Origin: Thermoguttaceae bacterium
Lineage (GTDB): Bacteria; Planctomycetota; Planctomycetia; Pirellulales; Thermoguttaceae
DNA length: 64,000 bases
Direction: 5' to 3'
NCBI GenBank assembly: GCA_017441605.1
Contig: JAFRXD010000057.1
Span: 1-64,000, forward strand
A program made the position numbers and the translations under genes. Every line of letters begins with the position of its first letter. Positions within the stretch are counted from its first letter, which is position 1. Shown here one piece after another: positions 9,122 to 64,000 of the stretch. Below the pieces are notes generated by a model. The model worked only from the letters and a program-made list of their open reading frames with translations, was not told where the DNA came from and searched no databases.

Positions 9122-12100
9122 AATTAACGCCGATCGTCGGCGCTCTGTCGATTTTGCTCGCGTCCTGTTGGACCGCGCTCGCCGTCGAGAAATTCCCAAC
9201 GCGCGGAAATCTCAATTTGGACGGCGTTTGGGAATTCGCGCTCGATCCCGAAAACGTCGGCGAAACGAGTGCCTGGTTCTCTCCCGACGTCTCCCTTCCC
9301 TCGGACCTTCCCGAGGGCTCCGCTCCGAAAGAGCCCGGCAAAATCGTCGTCCCGGGCATTTGGGACGCCCAAGGTTACGGCGCTCCCACCAATAAAGTCA
9401 AGCACAACTTCGTCGGCAAAGGTTGGTACAAAAAAGCGATAACAGTTCCCGCCGATTGGGATAAGAACGACTCGATCTATCTAACCCTAGGCGGCATATC
9501 CCGTTCCGCGAAAGTCTGGATCGACGGCGAGCAAGTCGGCGAGGAAGTCGTCGGCTGCATCGGGGCCCACGAGTTCAACGTTTCCGAGTTCCTTAAACCG
9601 GGCGCCAAGGCGACGATCGCGATTCGCGTCGACTCCTCCCAAAACTGGGCGATCGACCCGTTGCTCGGCGCCGCTTCCCTCAACGACTACCTCGAAATCA
9701 AATGGGGCGGGCTGTGGGGCCACGTCTGGCTCGAATCGCGTCCCAAAACGCGCCTCGACTCTATTTATATCCGAACCGAGCTCGAAAAAGGCTACCTCGA
9801 AGGCTCGACCCGAGCGATCTGCCTCCTCGACGCGACGATCCTCGACGAAGCGAAGTCGAGCGACTTCTCCGGCGCCCTGACCCTGGAAATTTTCGACGCG
9901 CGAGGCGATAGCGTCGCGACCAAATATCTGCCGATCAAGAACCTCGATCTATCGACCGGAGAAGCCGTCGTCGCGCTTTCCGTCGGAATCGCCGACGCCA
10001 AATTGTGGAGTCCCGAGTCCCCCTATCTGTACGAGGCTCGCGCGACCTTCCAACCCGACGGCGCTAAAAAAGACGTTTGCGAAACCCGTTACGGCGCCCG
10101 CGAGATCAAATTCGACGGGAATAAAATCCTCTTGAACGGCGAGCCTTACTACCTGCGCGGCTACGGCGACGACCACATCTACCCGATCGAATTCTCCATG
10201 CCGACCGACGGCGCGATGTACCGCGAGCGACTCGAGATCATCAAGTCGTTCGGCTTCAACCATTGCCGCCACCACAGCTGCGTCTTGCCCCACGAGTACT
10301 ACGACGCGTGCGACGAGATCGGCATGCTCCCGAACGCCGAAATGCTCCTCGGCTATCCGCAGCAACTCCCGGGAGAGGGCGACCTTTGGAAGCGCAACGT
10401 CCCCGCCGGAACCGACCCCAAACCCGCCCTCGACACGATCAAATCCCGCTGGGCGCAAGTCGTTAAAGAATACCGAAATCACCCGTCGATCTTCGCGTGG
10501 GTCGGCGGCAACGAACTGTGCATGCTGAATTGGGATCGCTGGCTCGCCATGCCCCTCGGTCCGGAAATGAAAGAGATCGCGAAGAAACTCGACCCCGCTC
10601 GGTACTTTACCGACTGCGACGGCGACTTCCTCAACGAGTACAAAGCCCGAGGCGGACGAGAAGCCGAGGACTTCTACTCGATCCTCTTCGACGAATGGTC
10701 CAACCCCGTCCTGAACCAAAACAAGTTCAAGACCGACGCGGTCTTCGACAAGCCGGCTATTTCCCACGAATCGGGCAACTTCCTCACTTTTTCTCGTCAG
10801 GATCAAGTCGCGCTCTTCGAGAACAGCAATTACAAGCCGTTCTGGATGGTCGACGGAAAAGAGAAATTGGAGAAGCTCGGGCTCGCCGACGAGGTCGAGG
10901 CTTGGGCTAAGGCGTCTGAAAAGCTCTACTTGCTCGAGCACAAAAGCAACGTCGAAAGCGCGCGCAAGAATCCCGATTTGTCCGGATACCACTGGTGGTT
11001 GATCCAAGACTACTGGACCACCTCGAATGGAATCGTCGACCTCTTCTTCCGTCCCAAGTCCATTCGCCCCGAGGACATAACCCCGTTCAACGCGGAACTT
11101 GTTCTGCTCCAAGACGGACTAGATTTCTCCTATCGTTCCGGAGACTCCGTAGAAATCTCCCCGACAATCTCCAACTACTCCCGCGGAACCAAGAAAGGCT
11201 CCATGCGCTGGTCCTTCTCCCTCGGCGACTTGACCCCCGCGCGCGGCAAGATCGACGTCCCGAGCGCTCCAAACGGTCAATTGACCGCGCTCGACAAAAT
11301 CGAGTTCGTTTGCCCCGACGTCGACAAGCCGACTAAAGCGACCTTCCGACTCGATTTCTACGCCCTCGACGGCACAAGCCGCGCCAACTCCTGGACGACC
11401 CTGCTCTTCCCGAAGGAAATCGCCCCAACGACCCAAAAGCCCGTCTACGCCGACGAGACCGCGATTCGTTTCTTCCCCGAGGAATGGGGCGTCAAATCCT
11501 TAACCGGCTTGAAGGGCGACCTGCCGACCGACGCCGTCTACGCCGTCGCCTGGGCGACCCCCGACGTTATCAAGGCGGTCGAGCAAGGCGCGGGGCTACT
11601 ACACTTCGGCGCGTCCCAATTCCTCGGCTCCCTCCCGATGCGCTTCCAGCAAACCTGGTGGAAGGCGGGCGACTCCGATACCCAAAATAACACCGGAACT
11701 TACGTCTATCCCGACTCGTTCGTCGCCGACTTGGCTCCAGACGCCTTCTGCGGCGCCTCTTGGGCGTCGCTCCTCGACGGGGCGCAGAAGTTCAGCCTCG
11801 AAACTTCGCAACCTCGCCCGGAAATCGCGGTTCGCGCGCTTTCGAGTTTGGTTCGGGTCCAAGATTCCGCGATCCTCTTTGATTTCAAAGTCGGAAAAGG
11901 AACAGTCGTCGTCTCCGGCTTAAACTGCGAAATCCTGCGAGAAGACGGAAGTGGCGCCGAGAACTATACCGGAAAAGAAACGGTTAAGAATCCCTCTCTC
12001 GCGAACCTTTGCGTCCTCGCGCGCTCGATCGACTTGGCGGCGAACGGAACCTCCTCGAACGTCCAATGGGATCCCGAGTTCCTCGTTCCGCCCGTCAAGG

Positions 12101-56936: not shown

Positions 56937-57842
56937 ATGTCGACGCGTTACTCGTTCCTTGGAACAGCCTTTTTGACCCTAATCCTCGCCGTCTCGCTCG
57001 GCTGCTCCGAATCGACCGTTCCGCAAGAGCCCGCCGCCGAGCCGGAATCTCCCCCCGCCTCTCCGTTCGACGCGACGCGGTTCCCCGGAGGTCGAGAAAC
57101 GCTAACGATCGAAGGGGTCGAGTTCGCGTTCCGATACTGCCCCGAGGGAACCTTTATTCAAGGAGCGTCGGAGGGCGAGGGACTCAAGCTCGATCGCGAG
57201 CGCCCCGCGCGGAAAGTTACGATATCCAAAGGGTTTTGGCTCCAGGAGACCGAAACGACCCAAGCGCAGTGGACCGCGGTCGCCGGGTCGATTCCAAGCG
57301 GTTTCCAAGGGGAGAATCTCCCCGTCGAGAGCGTCTCTTGGAACGACTGCCAGGCGCTCGCGGGATTATTGAACGACTCCGGCGTCGCCCCCGAGGGCTG
57401 GGAATTCTCGCTTCCGACCGAGGCGCAGTGGGAATACGCCTGCCGCGCGGGGACGACGACCGCCTATTTTTGGGGCGACTCTCTAAACGGGGACCGCGCC
57501 AACTGCAACGGTGAAGCGCCCTACCGTTCGACGACTCGCGGTCCCTCGCTCGGGAAAACCCAACCGGTCGGTTCCTACGAGCCGAACGCATGGGGACTTA
57601 GCGACATGAACGGCAACGTCTGGGAATGGTGCAAAGACGCGTTCGACGCGAAGTTCTATCAAAAGCGCTCCGCCGACGATATCGACCCGGAAAACGACGC
57701 CGAGAGCGCGGTTCGCGTCGAGCGCGGAGGGAGTTGGTACGAACCCGCCGCAAGTTGCCGAGCCGCGTCCCGAAACGGCGCTCCCGCCGCGACCAGAAGC
57801 AACGCGATCGGCTTCCGACTCGCGCTCGTTAAGAAGGGGTAG
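56937..57842 (+). CDS. Formylglycine-generating enzyme (SUMF1)-like lipoprotein
   Basis: A 301-residue lipoprotein with lipobox SLGC (Cys23), so it is outside the cytoplasm. The SUMF1 domain starts near residue 55: FAFRYCPEGTFIQGAS, ISKGFWLQETETTQAQWTAV, VSWNDCQALAGLLN, LPTEAQWEYACRAGTTTAY, LSDMNGNVWEWCKDAF and VERGGSWY, ending GFRLALVKKG. These are the family's structural blocks. In true FGEs two active Cys convert a sulfatase Cys to formylglycine; here the final Cys pair (SCRAASRNGA) needs checking. Many planctomycete relatives are regulatory or binding proteins. A possible sulfatase partner is not in the window. Confidence 0.9.
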   Translation: MSTRYSFLGTAFLTLILAVSLGCSESTVPQEPAAEPESPPASPFDATRFPGGRETLTIEGVEFAFRYCPEGTFIQGASEGEGLKLDRERPARKVTISKGFWLQETETTQAQWTAVAGSIPSGFQGENLPVESVSWNDCQALAGLLNDSGVAPEGWEFSLPTEAQWEYACRAGTTTAYFWGDSLNGDRANCNGEAPYRSTTRGPSLGKTQPVGSYEPNAWGLSDMNGNVWEWCKDAFDAKFYQKRSADDIDPENDAESAVRVERGGSWYEPAASCRAASRNGAPAATRSNAIGFRLALVKKG

Positions 57843-58518: not shown

Positions 58519-59886
58519 ATGAAGAAACTTGGCGCTTTGTTGTTGGCGTCCGCGCTCTTTGGGCTCGGGCTGCTCGACGCCCAACCGGCCGCCGCGGACT
58601 GCGGCAAGATGATGGTCGTGTACTACGTCTGGCCCTCCCCGCCCCCTCCGCCGCCGCGACCCCTTCCGCGCTGCTACGTCCCGCCGACTCAGCCGAGACC
58701 CCAGCGTCGGCAAACCGTTCATTTCCAGAACGACGTCGCCAATTCCACGTGGCAAAACGCCGGACGAGACGCGAACAACGTTACGATCGTCAACAACGGC
58801 AATCTCTCGTTCAACTCCCCGGCGCCTCTCAAGCCGCCCAAGGGGCGCGAAAAGTTCGACGGGTTCAACCCGATGACCCCGATCGACGGACGCGACTACG
58901 ACGCCAACGACTCGTCCAATAGTTCCAGTATCAACTACAGCCAGTGGTTCCAAAACGGGGACAACAACGATTCCAACGTCAACGTTGGGAACGACAACCA
59001 AGTCGCCGCCGACAATCAAATCGCCGCGGTCGACCCGGTCAATAGCGTTACCGGTTTCTCGATGGGGCCCGACAACGCCTTCACCGAACCGGAACAACAA
59101 GGCGTTCTGGCGTGGAACGGTCGCTCCGACGACGCGGGAGAGGAACTCCTGATTCTCTCGACCAACGAGGGAACGACGACCGGTCAAGCGACCGCGATGC
59201 TCAGCGTCCTGCCCCTACCGGGCGCCCCGATCTCCGTCGAGCGAGCCAGTCTCCAGAGCTTCGTTACCGCCAAAGCCTTGCTGCAATCGAAGTTGCCGAG
59301 CAGCATGGACGCGGAGGGCATGGGCGTCGTCCTCGAGACGAAAATCGGCTCGCACAACATTTTCGTGTGGGAAGTCGAGAGCTCCAGCGATTTCCAAGGG
59401 AAAGTTCAGAGCTACGTCGCGGACAAATACGGCGGGAAAGCCGCCGCGGTCATTACGCAAAACACCGTTAAGGTCATCGAGCAGTACCTGAAGGAAGGTT
59501 TCCGCTACTTCGCGTTCGACCTGACGATCGTCGAAGGGCAAAACTCGACGAAAGAGGCGATCGCGTATCGGTTCAAGTCGAAGTACGCGTACTTCCCGCT
59601 CCGCATTAGCCAAATCGGGGGCGTCAAGAACACGCTCGTCGACCTGGTCGTCCTGACCCCGAAGATGGAGCTGACGTTCACTCAGCGCTCCGCGATCCAA
59701 GGGAACGACGATACGTTCGACGTTTTCGGACCGGTCGATTTCAGCGCCGCCGAGCTTAAGACGATCGACGACTCGGTCGCCAACTTCTTCCGGGGCGCGC
59801 CTTCGGTTCAAGCGAGAAGCATGTCCTTCTCCTCGGACAGTATGGACGCCTACCAGAACGACTTCGAAGTCGTCGCCAAAAAATAA
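58519..59886 (+). CDS. Secreted DUF2330-like protein with Asn-rich domain
   Basis: A 455-residue exported protein with a signal peptide (to about QPAAADC). Residues 35-60 are Pro/Tyr-rich; residues 75-180 are Asn/Ser/Asp-rich with short repeats (NNVTIVNNGN, NYSQWFQNGDNN, NVNVGNDNQV), reminiscent of curli-like or other beta-rich repeats. From residue about 190 the protein is DUF2330-like: QQGVLAWNGRSDDAGEELLILST, LPLPGAPISVERASLQSFV and later YVADKYGG, GFRYFAFDLTI, KYAYFPLRISQIGG. DUF2330 proteins are exported proteins of unknown function. It is the first gene of a run of exported proteins with a paralog at 59915. Confidence 0.75.
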   Translation: MKKLGALLLASALFGLGLLDAQPAAADCGKMMVVYYVWPSPPPPPPRPLPRCYVPPTQPRPQRRQTVHFQNDVANSTWQNAGRDANNVTIVNNGNLSFNSPAPLKPPKGREKFDGFNPMTPIDGRDYDANDSSNSSSINYSQWFQNGDNNDSNVNVGNDNQVAADNQIAAVDPVNSVTGFSMGPDNAFTEPEQQGVLAWNGRSDDAGEELLILSTNEGTTTGQATAMLSVLPLPGAPISVERASLQSFVTAKALLQSKLPSSMDAEGMGVVLETKIGSHNIFVWEVESSSDFQGKVQSYVADKYGGKAAAVITQNTVKVIEQYLKEGFRYFAFDLTIVEGQNSTKEAIAYRFKSKYAYFPLRISQIGGVKNTLVDLVVLTPKMELTFTQRSAIQGNDDTFDVFGPVDFSAAELKTIDDSVANFFRGAPSVQARSMSFSSDSMDAYQNDFEVVAKK

Positions 59887-59914
59887 CCCAAATCGATAGC
59901 CTAGCGAGACAACG

Positions 59915-61252
59915 ATGAACAAATCAACGAGTCGCGGCGCTTTGGCGCTCGCCTTTACCTTGTGTTGCGCCTCCCTTTTGGGATTCGACGGTCGCGTTCC
60001 GATCGTCGGGGGCGCGAAAACCGAACCCGGCGCGACAGCGAGCGAAAATCTCCAATTCGCCGTCGATCCGTTTGAATCTCGCGAGCGCGCGACGGAACTC
60101 GACCCCGCCCTCTTCTGGGAAAACTGGAGCGAGCACGAGTCGATTCCGTCCGCGGACCAAGCGAGCTTCGCTCGTCCCGCCTTAACTCCGGACGCCGCGT
60201 CTCAAAGGCGCGGCTCCCTGCTCCTCGAAGTCGACGCGATCGTCGTTTGGAACGGTCGCGAAGACGAGGGAGGCCGAGAGCTTATCCTCTTCCAAACGAA
60301 AGAAAAACCGTTGGCGTCCCCCGCCGAGGGAGCGAGCGACGCCTCGCTCGGAATCCTGCCGCTGAGCGGGAAGCCGATTCGCGTCGCGCGCGCCGGAGAC
60401 GATTTCGTCAATTTGAAAAACGCCTTTTCGCGCAAATACGCGAACAAACATAAGCAAGACTTGATCGCGCCGGGCGAGGTCTACGACTACCCCGAGCGCG
60501 CCCCCTATTGCGCCTTCGTCGTCGAGTCCGAGAACGCGAGCGCGCTCGTCGCCTCGGCGAGCCAATCGATTTCGGAGCTATTCCCCGGCGCGAAACTCGC
60601 GTTTGGTAAAACCGACGAGGCGATTCTCCAATCCTATTTCGACGCGGGAATTCGCCATTTCCTGCTCGACGTCTTCGACTACGAAAAGAAAGACGACTAC
60701 TCTTATATTAAGACGCCGCTGTCGGTCGTTTTCGAGTCCCCAAAACTGTTCGTTCCTTTCGGGATCGAAAAGATCGGCGCGGTCGCCGGAAGCGACCCGG
60801 TCGTCGTCGATATGCTCGTCCTAACCCCGGGCAGAGTCAAAATTCCCGAGGGCGCCGAGCCGCCAACATCCTTCGACGTCTTCCCGAACCTCAAAGTCGA
60901 TCCGCCAATGGCGCTCTCGCTCGAGGAGCTGAAAAAGCAAGCCCCCGAAGTCGCGAAGTTCTGCGAGGAAAACGGGCTGACGACCCTCGTCGTTCGCAAT
61001 ATGCTCGGGGACGCTCTCGAGAGCGATCTTACGTTCGTCGGAGATCCTGAAGCCGACGCGGGGAAACCCGGGGCGGCGACGGGGAGCTCCGAATCGGAGG
61101 CGAAACCGGTCGAACTCGGCGAAGAACCGGTTCCCGCGAACGAGGCGAAACCGGCCGCGACTAAGACCGAGGCGCCCAAACCCTCGAGCTCCAAAGCTCC
61201 GGCGCCGAAGGCCGCCGCGAAAGCGCCTAAAACCCAATCGCCGAAAAAATAA
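59915..61252 (+). CDS. Secreted DUF2330-like protein with Pro/Ala/Lys-rich tail
   Basis: A 445-residue exported paralog of the 58519 protein, starting 28 nt after it. The signal peptide ends near SLLGFDG. The DUF2330-like region includes DAIVVWNGREDEGGRELILFQT, PLSGKPIRVARAG and GIRHFLLDVFDYE, FESPKLFVPFGIEKIG. The Asn-rich domain of the first paralog is absent. The C-terminal 75 residues are a Pro/Ala/Lys/Glu tail (APAPKAAAKAPK). Function unknown; probably acts with its neighbour outside the cytoplasm. Confidence 0.75.
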   Translation: MNKSTSRGALALAFTLCCASLLGFDGRVPIVGGAKTEPGATASENLQFAVDPFESRERATELDPALFWENWSEHESIPSADQASFARPALTPDAASQRRGSLLLEVDAIVVWNGREDEGGRELILFQTKEKPLASPAEGASDASLGILPLSGKPIRVARAGDDFVNLKNAFSRKYANKHKQDLIAPGEVYDYPERAPYCAFVVESENASALVASASQSISELFPGAKLAFGKTDEAILQSYFDAGIRHFLLDVFDYEKKDDYSYIKTPLSVVFESPKLFVPFGIEKIGAVAGSDPVVVDMLVLTPGRVKIPEGAEPPTSFDVFPNLKVDPPMALSLEELKKQAPEVAKFCEENGLTTLVVRNMLGDALESDLTFVGDPEADAGKPGAATGSSESEAKPVELGEEPVPANEAKPAATKTEAPKPSSSKAPAPKAAAKAPKTQSPKK

Positions 61253-61364
61253 TCGACGCGCCGTCCGATTCCGCGCTGCGCCCAAACGGCTCGCGGCGCG
61301 ACGAATCGCCGTCGCTCCCCCATCGCCATCTATCGAAACGACGCTCGCGTCGATCGCAACTCAA

Positions 61365-62405
61365 ATGAAACTAACGCGTTTATTCTTCATTCTTATCGCG
61401 TCGATCGCGACGTCGGTCGCTTTCGCGCGCGGGGCGGATCCGACGCCTCAAACCTCCTCCGCGACCCAAACCGAGAAATCGGACTGGGAACCGAAAGACC
61501 CCGCCAAGGCGAGCGTTCTCTTCGTCTTGGAAACGCCCGCCGAGGGCGAGCCGCACCGCGCGCAATGCGCCGAAATCGCGCGGCGGAAGATCGAGTCGTT
61601 CGCGACCGCGCTGAAAAAATCGGCGCCGGGCCAAATTAAGGTTTCGGCGCTCTTCGGCGACCAAACGACCGCCAAAGACATATGCGCCGCGTGCAAGGCG
61701 TATTCCGACGAGCTCGGTCCGAACGACGCGCTGTTCGTTTACGTTTTCGCGCCGAGCGTCTCGCTTGCGAACAACGGTCGAGTCTATAACGGAATCGCGC
61801 CTCGCGCGCCCTCGTCGCTCAATCCGGAGCCGGAGAAACACGGGGTTCTTCGGCGAACGATCCGGAAGCATATGTCGACGCGCGCGCATCGATTGGAGGT
61901 TCTGTTGGTCGACGTTTGCCCGAGCTTCGCGCTCTCGACGCGACGCGCCCTATTGGACGAGGGGCCCGCGGAGGAGGTCTCGACCGACTTCTCCTATTTT
62001 GCGCGGTTTCTCCTCGAAGGGGAGGGATTCCTCGATCTCTCGTCGTCGCGTCCGAATCGCGCCGAAGCGCTCGACGAGCCGGTCGCTTGGATTCCGCTGG
62101 AGGCGCAAGCGAAAGAGACCGCGACGCCAGAGCTGTTCGCGAAACTCGCGAGCGACCGCCTCTCCGGAACGCTTTTCCTTAACGCGTTCCTCGACGCCGC
62201 GAGCGACGCGCGCTTTACCGACGCCGACCTAACCCCGGACGGGTTCGCCGTCGCCCTCGAGTCCTCGATGAAAGAGCGCGAAAAACGGTTCCGAGAAGTC
62301 TTCTTCGGCGAGCGGTTCCAAACGTTGACGCGATTCGATCGCCGCGCCGCCGAAATCGTCTTGAAGAAGGACCGATCCGAACAACCCCAAGCGCCCGCTC
62401 AATAA
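61365..62405 (+). CDS. Secreted caspase-like pseudoprotease
   Basis: A 346-residue exported protein paralogous to the next gene. The signal peptide runs to about AFARG. The fold segments line up: RRKIESFATALKK, DALFVYVFAPSVS, RLEVLLVDVCPSF. In the active paralog the first of the last two reads FVYILCHGG with catalytic His129; here Pro130 stands in that place. Cys185 is kept. Thus a caspase/metacaspase-fold protein that should lack protease activity. The start at 61365 has no clear ribosome site. It lies 16 nt before the active copy, suggesting an inactive partner or regulator. Confidence 0.8.
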   Translation: MKLTRLFFILIASIATSVAFARGADPTPQTSSATQTEKSDWEPKDPAKASVLFVLETPAEGEPHRAQCAEIARRKIESFATALKKSAPGQIKVSALFGDQTTAKDICAACKAYSDELGPNDALFVYVFAPSVSLANNGRVYNGIAPRAPSSLNPEPEKHGVLRRTIRKHMSTRAHRLEVLLVDVCPSFALSTRRALLDEGPAEEVSTDFSYFARFLLEGEGFLDLSSSRPNRAEALDEPVAWIPLEAQAKETATPELFAKLASDRLSGTLFLNAFLDAASDARFTDADLTPDGFAVALESSMKEREKRFREVFFGERFQTLTRFDRRAAEIVLKKDRSEQPQAPAQ

Positions 62406-62421
62406 CGCGTTGGAGAAAACG

Positions 62422-63522
62422 ATGAACATCCGAACAAAACTGCTTTTGACGGCGCTGGTTTCACTATTCGCGCTCGCGTTTTCCTCGTCCGCCTCGGCGC
62501 AGGCTCCCAGAACGAAAGTCTATATGCTCTTCGTCTGGGGAACTCAAACGACCGAAACGCGCTCGATGGTCGAGCTGAGCCAACGCCGAGTCGAGTCCGC
62601 GTTCGAGAAGCCCGCCGACGAGTACGCGAAAGATCCGCGCAACTATTGCGCGCAAGGGAGGCTCTCCTATTTCCGCGAGAAGTTCGTCGCGGAAATCGCG
62701 ACTCTCTCCGGCGCGAACGCGTCGCCGATCAATATCAAAAATAAGTGCGAGGAACTCGCCGCGAAAGCGGGATCGAACGACGCCGTGTTCGTTTATATTC
62801 TTTGCCACGGCGGGGTGGTGGCGGGTCGGGACGGTAAAAAGCGCCACGGGCTGTCCCCTATCGCGGACAGCGTCAAGGACTTGGACATGCTCCACAAGGG
62901 AATCGCGCGCGACACGATTATGAAGGCGATTAGCTCCAAGCCGCACCGGCTCGACGTCCTAATCACCGACGCCTGCTCCGTTCCGTTGCCCTCGCAACTG
63001 CAAAACGTGGTTCCCAAACAAAACCCGGGCGTTAGAGCCTCGGCGCTTCCGTATCTGGCGAAATTCCTAATCAACGCGGAGGGGACGGTAAACGTTAACT
63101 CCTCGCGTCCCGAAACCCCGACGAAAAACTCCGAGGAAGCGATGGGGCTCGATTCGCCCAACTGGCGAACCCCGCCCTCCGGCGACGTCGAGCGCTTCGA
63201 GTACGAACGATTTGCCGGCACGGTCTTTACCAACGCCTTTCTCAAACTCGCGATCGACGATTCCGATTACGACCCGGAGAACGGTTGGTCCCCGGAGCAG
63301 TTCTTCGTCGACTTGCGCGAAAAGCTCGACGAACAGTACGGCGAGACGCTCTCCCACTTGCGCGAGAACAGCATGCTCGGCGCGATTTCCAAATTCAAAA
63401 AACAACGAACCCAAACCCTAACCCGGTTCGTCGCCGATAGTTTGCCAAACCCCGACGATTTGAACTACTCCTCGCGACGAGGATCCCAACGATCGGGCGG
63501 CTCGAACTCCGACTCGTTTTAA
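62422..63522 (+). CDS. Secreted caspase-like (peptidase C14-type) protease
   Basis: A 366-residue exported protein. The start at 62422 (MNIRTKLLL) has a ttggaga site; a TTG 12 nt upstream is less likely. The signal peptide ends near SASAQ. The caspase-type dyad is visible: FVYILCHGG (His129) and LDVLITDACS (Cys185), spaced 56 residues as in metacaspase-like enzymes. Segments NDAVFVYIL, KPHRLDVLITDAC and RFAGTVFTNAFL give the beta-sheet and p10-like region. The paralog upstream lacks the His. Substrate preference (Arg/Lys or Asp) is unknown. Export is notable, since caspase homologs are usually cytoplasmic. Confidence 0.85.
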   Translation: MNIRTKLLLTALVSLFALAFSSSASAQAPRTKVYMLFVWGTQTTETRSMVELSQRRVESAFEKPADEYAKDPRNYCAQGRLSYFREKFVAEIATLSGANASPINIKNKCEELAAKAGSNDAVFVYILCHGGVVAGRDGKKRHGLSPIADSVKDLDMLHKGIARDTIMKAISSKPHRLDVLITDACSVPLPSQLQNVVPKQNPGVRASALPYLAKFLINAEGTVNVNSSRPETPTKNSEEAMGLDSPNWRTPPSGDVERFEYERFAGTVFTNAFLKLAIDDSDYDPENGWSPEQFFVDLREKLDEQYGETLSHLRENSMLGAISKFKKQRTQTLTRFVADSLPNPDDLNYSSRRGSQRSGGSNSDSF

Positions 63523-63530
63523 CTTCGACT

Positions 63531-63577
63531 CGCTCGACGAGCGCTTTCCGCTTCGTCGAGCGCGCCTTTATTATTTC
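63531..63577 (+). terminator. Terminator after the caspase-like gene
   Basis: Arms cgctcgacga (63531-63540) and tcgtcgagcg (63553-63562) with a 12-nt loop, then cgcctttatt. It splits the caspase gene from the 63600 gene. Confidence 0.75.
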
Positions 63578-63599
63578 CCCCTCTTGATAAGGAACTCCA

Positions 63600-64000
63600 A
63601 TGAACAAATCGATTTCCCTCCTCGCGATCCTATTCGCGCTCGCGCTGGCGACTTCCGTCCAAGCGCAAGACTGCTTCCCCTCTTGCGACGAGCCGGTCGC
63701 CGACCAATGTTTCGCGCCGCGCTTCTTCGCGCCGCGTTGTTTCGCCGCGCGTTGCTTCCGAGCGCCGGTCGCTTGTTGCGAGCCTTGCGCGGTTCGTCCT
63801 CGCTTGTTCCTAGGGCTTCGCCATAGAGCGCTTTGCGAGCCGGTTTGCGTCCCATGCGCCCCCGCTTGCGCGCCCGAGTTCGCCGCGCCCGTCCCGGTCG
63901 TCGAGCCCGCGCCCGCGCCGGTCCAAGAGCCCGTCCCCGCGGTCGAGCCCGCGCCCGCCGCGCAAGAGCCCGCCCCGGCGCAAGCCGCCGAACCCGCGCA
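63600..64000 (+). CDS. Cys-rich secreted protein with Pro/Ala/Glu tail (partial)
   Basis: The gene runs off the window. At least 133 residues are seen. Signal peptide MNKSISLLAILFALALATSVQ, then a Cys/Phe/Pro-rich block (residues 25-95, with repeats FAPRFFAPRCFAARCFRAP) and a Pro/Ala/Val/Glu tail (VVEPAPAPVQEPVPAVEPAP). Such Cys-rich and PAE-rich secreted proteins are common in planctomycete envelopes. A ggaactcca site precedes the start (ribosome aagga). Disulfide-linked cell wall protein is a guess. The last gene of the exported cluster. Confidence 0.7.
   Translation, partial: MNKSISLLAILFALALATSVQAQDCFPSCDEPVADQCFAPRFFAPRCFAARCFRAPVACCEPCAVRPRLFLGLRHRALCEPVCVPCAPACAPEFAAPVPVVEPAPAPVQEPVPAVEPAPAAQEPAPAQAAEPA

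Follow-up and report, generated by a model that had tools for sequence, protein, structure and literature searches.

We have found, at the end of a 64,000 nucleotide (nt) stretch of a Thermoguttaceae bacterium genome (assembly GCA_017441605.1, contig JAFRXD010000057.1; the whole stretch is called here the window), a gene cluster in which exported caspase-like proteins are encoded next to DUF2330-like proteins. The core of the latter is predicted to have the fold of the baculovirus protein P35, a classic apoptosis suppressor known, as far as the literature searched shows, only from insect viruses. On balance we favour the reading that the cluster codes for an exported caspase-like protease kept in check by P35-fold partners, which would inhibit it or dedicatedly block it. 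The initial annotation, made from the letters of the window, had described five genes on the same strand with gaps of 28, 112, 16 and 77 nt, and the list of open reading frames (ORFs) agrees. All five encoded proteins have signal-peptide-like N-termini (judged by eye, without a predictor). Genes 1 and 2 are the DUF2330-like paralogs (A from here on, gene 1 being of type I and gene 2 of type II), genes 3 and 4 the caspase-like paralogs (B), and the fifth gene codes for a Cys-rich protein that is indeed cut by the window end and completed by the sequence beyond it (Table 1).

An AlphaFold2 model of the core of gene 1, obtained from 19 relatives, had a mean predicted local distance difference test score (pLDDT) of 87 and a predicted template modelling score of 0.88. 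When the model was searched against PDB with Foldseek, the first seven matches were all P35, the caspase-8/P35 complex among them. With VIA it matched P35 (1p35) with a Z of 12.6 and a root mean square deviation of 4.2 over 219 residues, positions 8–276 of the model being collinear with 8–300 of P35, and the next different fold came at a Z of 9.6. In the library of viral structures (BFVD), the first five matches were P49, an uncharacterised entomopoxvirus protein, a nucleopolyhedrovirus apoptotic suppressor protein, P35 and a P35/P49-like protein. The baculovirus P35/P49 fold, the best match in both structure libraries searched, is the one predicted for the A core. These searches were made without genome context, so that the fold and the caspase neighbours are independent lines of evidence in agreement.

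Structure prediction also recovered the caspase fold that had been read from the sequence of genes 3 and 4. The matches listed by Foldseek and VIA for the B model were all caspases, paracaspases or metacaspases (Z 13.9 to MALT1), and the best PDB matches of the B family profile were caspase-fold proteins as well. A Pfam search of the two window proteins gave no match, and several of their relatives exceed the cut-off of Peptidase_C14 (PF00656). One paralog with a catalytic dyad and one without had been announced, and actually gene 4 has His129 and Cys185 while gene 3 has Pro130 in place of the His and keeps Cys185. Gene 4 is predicted to code for an exported caspase-like protease with an intact dyad, and gene 3, judging from these residues, for a catalytically dead paralogue, i.e., a pseudo-enzyme. 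In metacaspases and in MALT1, an Asp at position −2 from the Cys goes with basic rather than Asp specificity; this Asp is kept in nearly all B proteins, suggesting basic specificity here too. That planctomycete metacaspases often lack the dyad is already known (64% are intact), and the survey that reported it does not mention any coupling to P35-like proteins or inhibitors (PMC3501461). Compared with the prokaryotic caspase homologues, orthocaspases and metacaspases of the Peptidase_C14 family, the B proteins share the caspase fold, the His/Cys dyad (in gene 4) and the D-x-C motif, but they are a diverged subfamily under the Pfam cut-off, exported, and coupled to P35-fold proteins and sometimes to serpins.

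The association of A with B is repeated in other genomes (draft genomes on which genes were called with our own caller; G, C and L labels stand for genomes, contigs and loci, G000 being the genome that carries the window). A proteins were found in 19 of the 119 genomes of the family. Their matches are labelled Thermoguttaceae, Pirellulales or Planctomycetaceae, several of them from gut samples. Seventeen A loci have a gene with a caspase domain as neighbour or fusion partner, nearly all of them on the same strand and with gaps of at most 270 nt, and most of the other A loci are cut by the ends of short contigs. The adjacency spans two planctomycete families, with one locus in the other family of the order (G532, family f16). 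A crude per-gene frequency puts the chance of such adjacency below 1e-30, a figure that is truly larger given the relatedness of the genomes. The initial annotation had named beforehand two results that would refute its system idea, caspase-like and DUF2330-like genes that do not co-occur in related genomes and a structure prediction without a caspase fold; we have found the opposite in both cases. The window genome itself has, on contig C16, a second and diverged A-A-B-B set with the same four-gene order, behind which a C14 protein with a fused FGE-sulfatase domain is encoded.

Two genomes have A and B in one polypeptide. In G133 a protein of 670 amino acids (aa) is made of A (residues 110–380) and B (422–663), and G144 has a truncated equivalent; in both, the His of the fused B is replaced by Arg or Lys and the Cys is kept. 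Beside the fusion gene, G133 encodes a type I A on its own and an active B, which makes its domain set equal to that of the window. In phylogenetic trees, gene 2 and the fused A domains come together (support 0.98), gene 3 stands beside gene 4, and the fused B domains are located elsewhere. Orthology of gene 3 with the fused pseudo-caspases was rejected on these grounds; the His has been lost at least twice, and type II A proteins have come to be associated with dead caspases on at least two occasions.

Some related clusters contain serpins, protease inhibitors of which some block caspases (CrmA, PMC7863939). The order in G532 is A, caspase and serpin (gaps of 33 and 14 nt), and in G149 caspase, A and serpin; a serpin comes after an A fragment in G028 and beside a B gene in G042. 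This recurrent company favours an inhibitory role of A. The likeness to serpins (PF00079) would be that of protease-inhibitor genes sharing clusters (G532, G149 and G028), but the fold of A is unrelated, and a search of the window genome for serpins found none.

How far the resemblance to P35 goes can be followed in two regions of the protein. Caspases cleave P35 at Asp87 in its reactive loop, and the thioester-bound state persists, protected by the N-terminal Cys2 (PMC7863939; PMC3375223); AcP35 inhibits the bacterial protease gingipain-K too (PMC3375223). In A, a loop between helix 67–79 and strand 101–106 of the model is collinear with the P35 reactive loop and has a pLDDT near 60. Over the family, this helix-to-strand loop has the highest sequence entropy of all blocks and a length of 14–38 residues. 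A Lys or Arg just before the subsequent [I/V]-G is common in it, also in members without caspase neighbours, which makes this residue only a weak P1 candidate. The mature N-terminus of type I A proteins, D-C-G-K after an A-x-A site, is conserved despite the long variable linker behind it, and gene 1 and most type I members have the Cys at mature position 2 (cleavage site assigned by eye). Altogether, A is like the caspase inhibitors P35/P49 (MEROPS I50, PF02331) in the predicted fold of the whole domain, and its gene adjoins that of the presumed target, a caspase-fold protease. The variable loop that follows the first helix and the Cys near the mature N-terminus of most type I members may be further likenesses. 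A differs in being bacterial and exported, with no detectable sequence similarity, a long linker from the N-terminus to the core and no evident Asp-type site.

The family to which A belongs was correctly recognized from the sequence. The two window proteins fall under the Pfam cut-off of DUF2330 (PF10092), with 14.7 and 13.4 bits against 24.7 (E 0.018 and 0.044), but some A relatives pass it (in G041, G034, G425 and G177). In a profile-profile comparison with hhalign, A aligned to canonical DUF2330 over 182 columns with 98.3% probability (E 2.2e-14), the control against the caspase-like alignment giving 0.2%. At the profile level, A proteins are homologous to canonical DUF2330, many members of which also begin with Cys after the signal peptide. 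The canonical loci examined are, unlike those of A, without caspase neighbours, so that the superfamily as a whole cannot have caspase binding as its function and an inhibitory role at such loci would need other targets; a pairing of every DUF2330 protein with a caspase was accordingly rejected. DUF2330 is named in no paper of the open-licence literature searched, which is weak evidence of absence. Other planctomycete families have DUF2330 genes in tandem arrays (L177, L178, L179 and L180), often with a Cys-first mature N-terminus and without caspases nearby. One A gene of a short subtype overlaps at its end with a gene for an archaemetzincin (M54 metallopeptidase; L062:985-1923).

Under the reading that we favour, the P35-fold protein, once exported, would dock on the active site of the adjacent caspase-like enzyme, using the loop that follows its first helix, and block it. 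It might act there as a pseudosubstrate that is cleaved and then stabilised by the N-terminal cysteine, in the manner of P35. A second pair, of a regulatory kind, would be made up of the type II protein with the dead caspase, which in some relatives are one polypeptide. Binding, inhibition and cleavage, as well as the role of the pseudo-caspase, the location in the cell and the substrate, are here what we infer. That A blocks B by the full thioester mechanism of P35 seems to us rather doubtful. Several results weigh against an inhibitor of the P35 kind. No match to PF02331 over the cut-off was found in ten genomes and none of the A profile to PDB sequences up to an E of 10, so the fold is the only link to P35. 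The model is also matched by Ost1 and by the N-terminal domain of M1 aminopeptidases (Z 8–9.6), and thus the fold by itself is no proof of inhibition. There is neither a conserved Asp nor another obvious P1 residue or cleavage motif in the A loop, type II (gene 2) and some type I members lack the N-terminal Cys, and no caspase gene was found near the canonical DUF2330 arrays examined in other planctomycetes.

Part of this evidence would suit another role of the P35-fold proteins, which the caspase-like protease would process as its substrates or as scaffolds at the surface, the fold being a general module for binding or structure like the Ost1 and M1 aminopeptidase domains. The long N/Q/P-rich linkers and the exported location agree with such a role, as do the DUF2330 arrays elsewhere without caspases and the superfamily-level fold matches, among which there is also the inter-alpha-inhibitor heavy chain. 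We regard it as unlikely, because P35/P49 are clearly first in two libraries and the serpins that share the clusters point to inhibition. A protease adjoining tandem candidate inhibitors, their rapid divergence, the patchy distribution in the family and the duplication of the cluster in one genome would be expected too of a secreted toxin-immunity pair, with the caspase-like protein as interbacterial effector and the P35-fold proteins (and the serpins) as exported immunity proteins. However, these are ordinary signal-peptide proteins in which Pfam, PADLOC and NCBIfam show no delivery or toxin-sorting domain, and we consider such a pair improbable. Exported proteins and C14 genes being both numerous in planctomycetes, the cluster might even consist of mere neighbours that share an export route without physical interaction; the two fusions nearly exclude this, and together with the 17 loci in two families they make chance adjacency untenable. 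We give such mere neighbourhood a very small probability. A known defence system is not supported either, as Pfam, NCBIfam and PADLOC reach no curated family on the window proteins.

The proposal that the five genes form one exported functional system is thus supported by the co-occurrence and by the caspase fold. What had been taken for a duplicated fold of unknown kind resembles the P35 inhibitor fold, and the cluster extends beyond the window end. In the open-licence literature we did not find P35 used with bacterial caspases nor bacterial P35 homologues (weak evidence of absence), suggesting that a bacterial module of caspase plus inhibitor has apparently not been described so far. If our reading is true, the P35-fold protein, adjacent and fused, would be the first dedicated partner of this kind for bacterial caspases. 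The model is besides a structural hypothesis for the whole uncharacterised Pfam family DUF2330. More tentatively, DUF2330 as a whole might consist of bacterial protease inhibitors that have the P35 fold and a conserved N-terminal cysteine, a large family that gave rise to P35/P49 of insect viruses or shares an ancestor with them. One branch of it would serve planctomycetes, together with serpins, to regulate exported caspase-like proteases of their own, as part of a network of bacterial proteases and inhibitors. Both where P35 originated and how bacterial caspases are controlled become questions that two small exported proteins allow one to test directly.

Table 1. Features of the gene cluster, in positions of the window.
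Feature	Position	Strand	Remarks
Gene 1 (P0001, 455 aa)	58519..59886	+	Type I DUF2330-like; signal peptide, N/Q/P-rich linker, predicted P35-fold domain
Residues 27–30 of gene 1, D-C-G-K	58597..58608	+	Directly after predicted AAA signal-peptidase site (by eye); Cys28 would be mature residue 2
P35-fold (DUF2330-like) domain of gene 1, residues 182–454	59062..59880	+	Predicted model
Candidate reactive-site loop of gene 1, residues 259–275	59293..59343	+	From first helix to next strand; low pLDDT, most variable block of the family; equivalence to P35 loop suggested by collinearity
Gene 2 (P0002, 445 aa)	59915..61252	+	Type II DUF2330-like, without N-terminal Cys
P35-fold (DUF2330-like) domain of gene 2, residues 104–376	60224..61042	+	In one clade with the A domains of the pseudo-caspase fusions of G133 and G144
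Gene 3 (P0003, 346 aa)	61365..62405	+	Exported caspase-like, putative pseudo-enzyme; Pro130 instead of His, Cys185 kept
Gene 4 (P0004, 366 aa)	62422..63522	+	Predicted exported caspase-like protease, dyad intact
Catalytic His129 codon of gene 4	62806..62808	+	
Catalytic Cys185 codon of gene 4	62974..62976	+	D-A-C-S motif, Asp two residues before Cys
Gene 5 (P0005)	63600..64000	+	Exported Cys/Pro-rich protein, cut by window end; full length 146 aa, to 64040

Past the window end there are two further C14 genes (contig positions 64062-65042 and 65130-66608; L051:9063-10043 and 10131-11609), the first without both dyad residues (by eye) and the second keeping both. In four clusters of the genus, the gene directly upstream of the caspase gene codes for an exported Cys-rich protein (L053:2-697, L054:18031-18555, L056:2276-3013 and L057:14258-15217), and one may speculate that the Cys/Pro-rich exported proteins flanking several clusters are candidate envelope substrates. 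Just upstream of the window cluster, at 56937-57842, there is a lipoprotein-like gene with an FGE-sulfatase domain. It echoes the caspase and FGE-sulfatase fusion proteins directly beside A/B clusters elsewhere (L050:14969-16864 and L057:5588-8626). In the window genome, a giant ORF (about 5,100 aa; L194:1-15381; G000:C62:22000-37380) combines a C14 caspase domain with an N-terminal surface-type motif (EPLEDRQLL).
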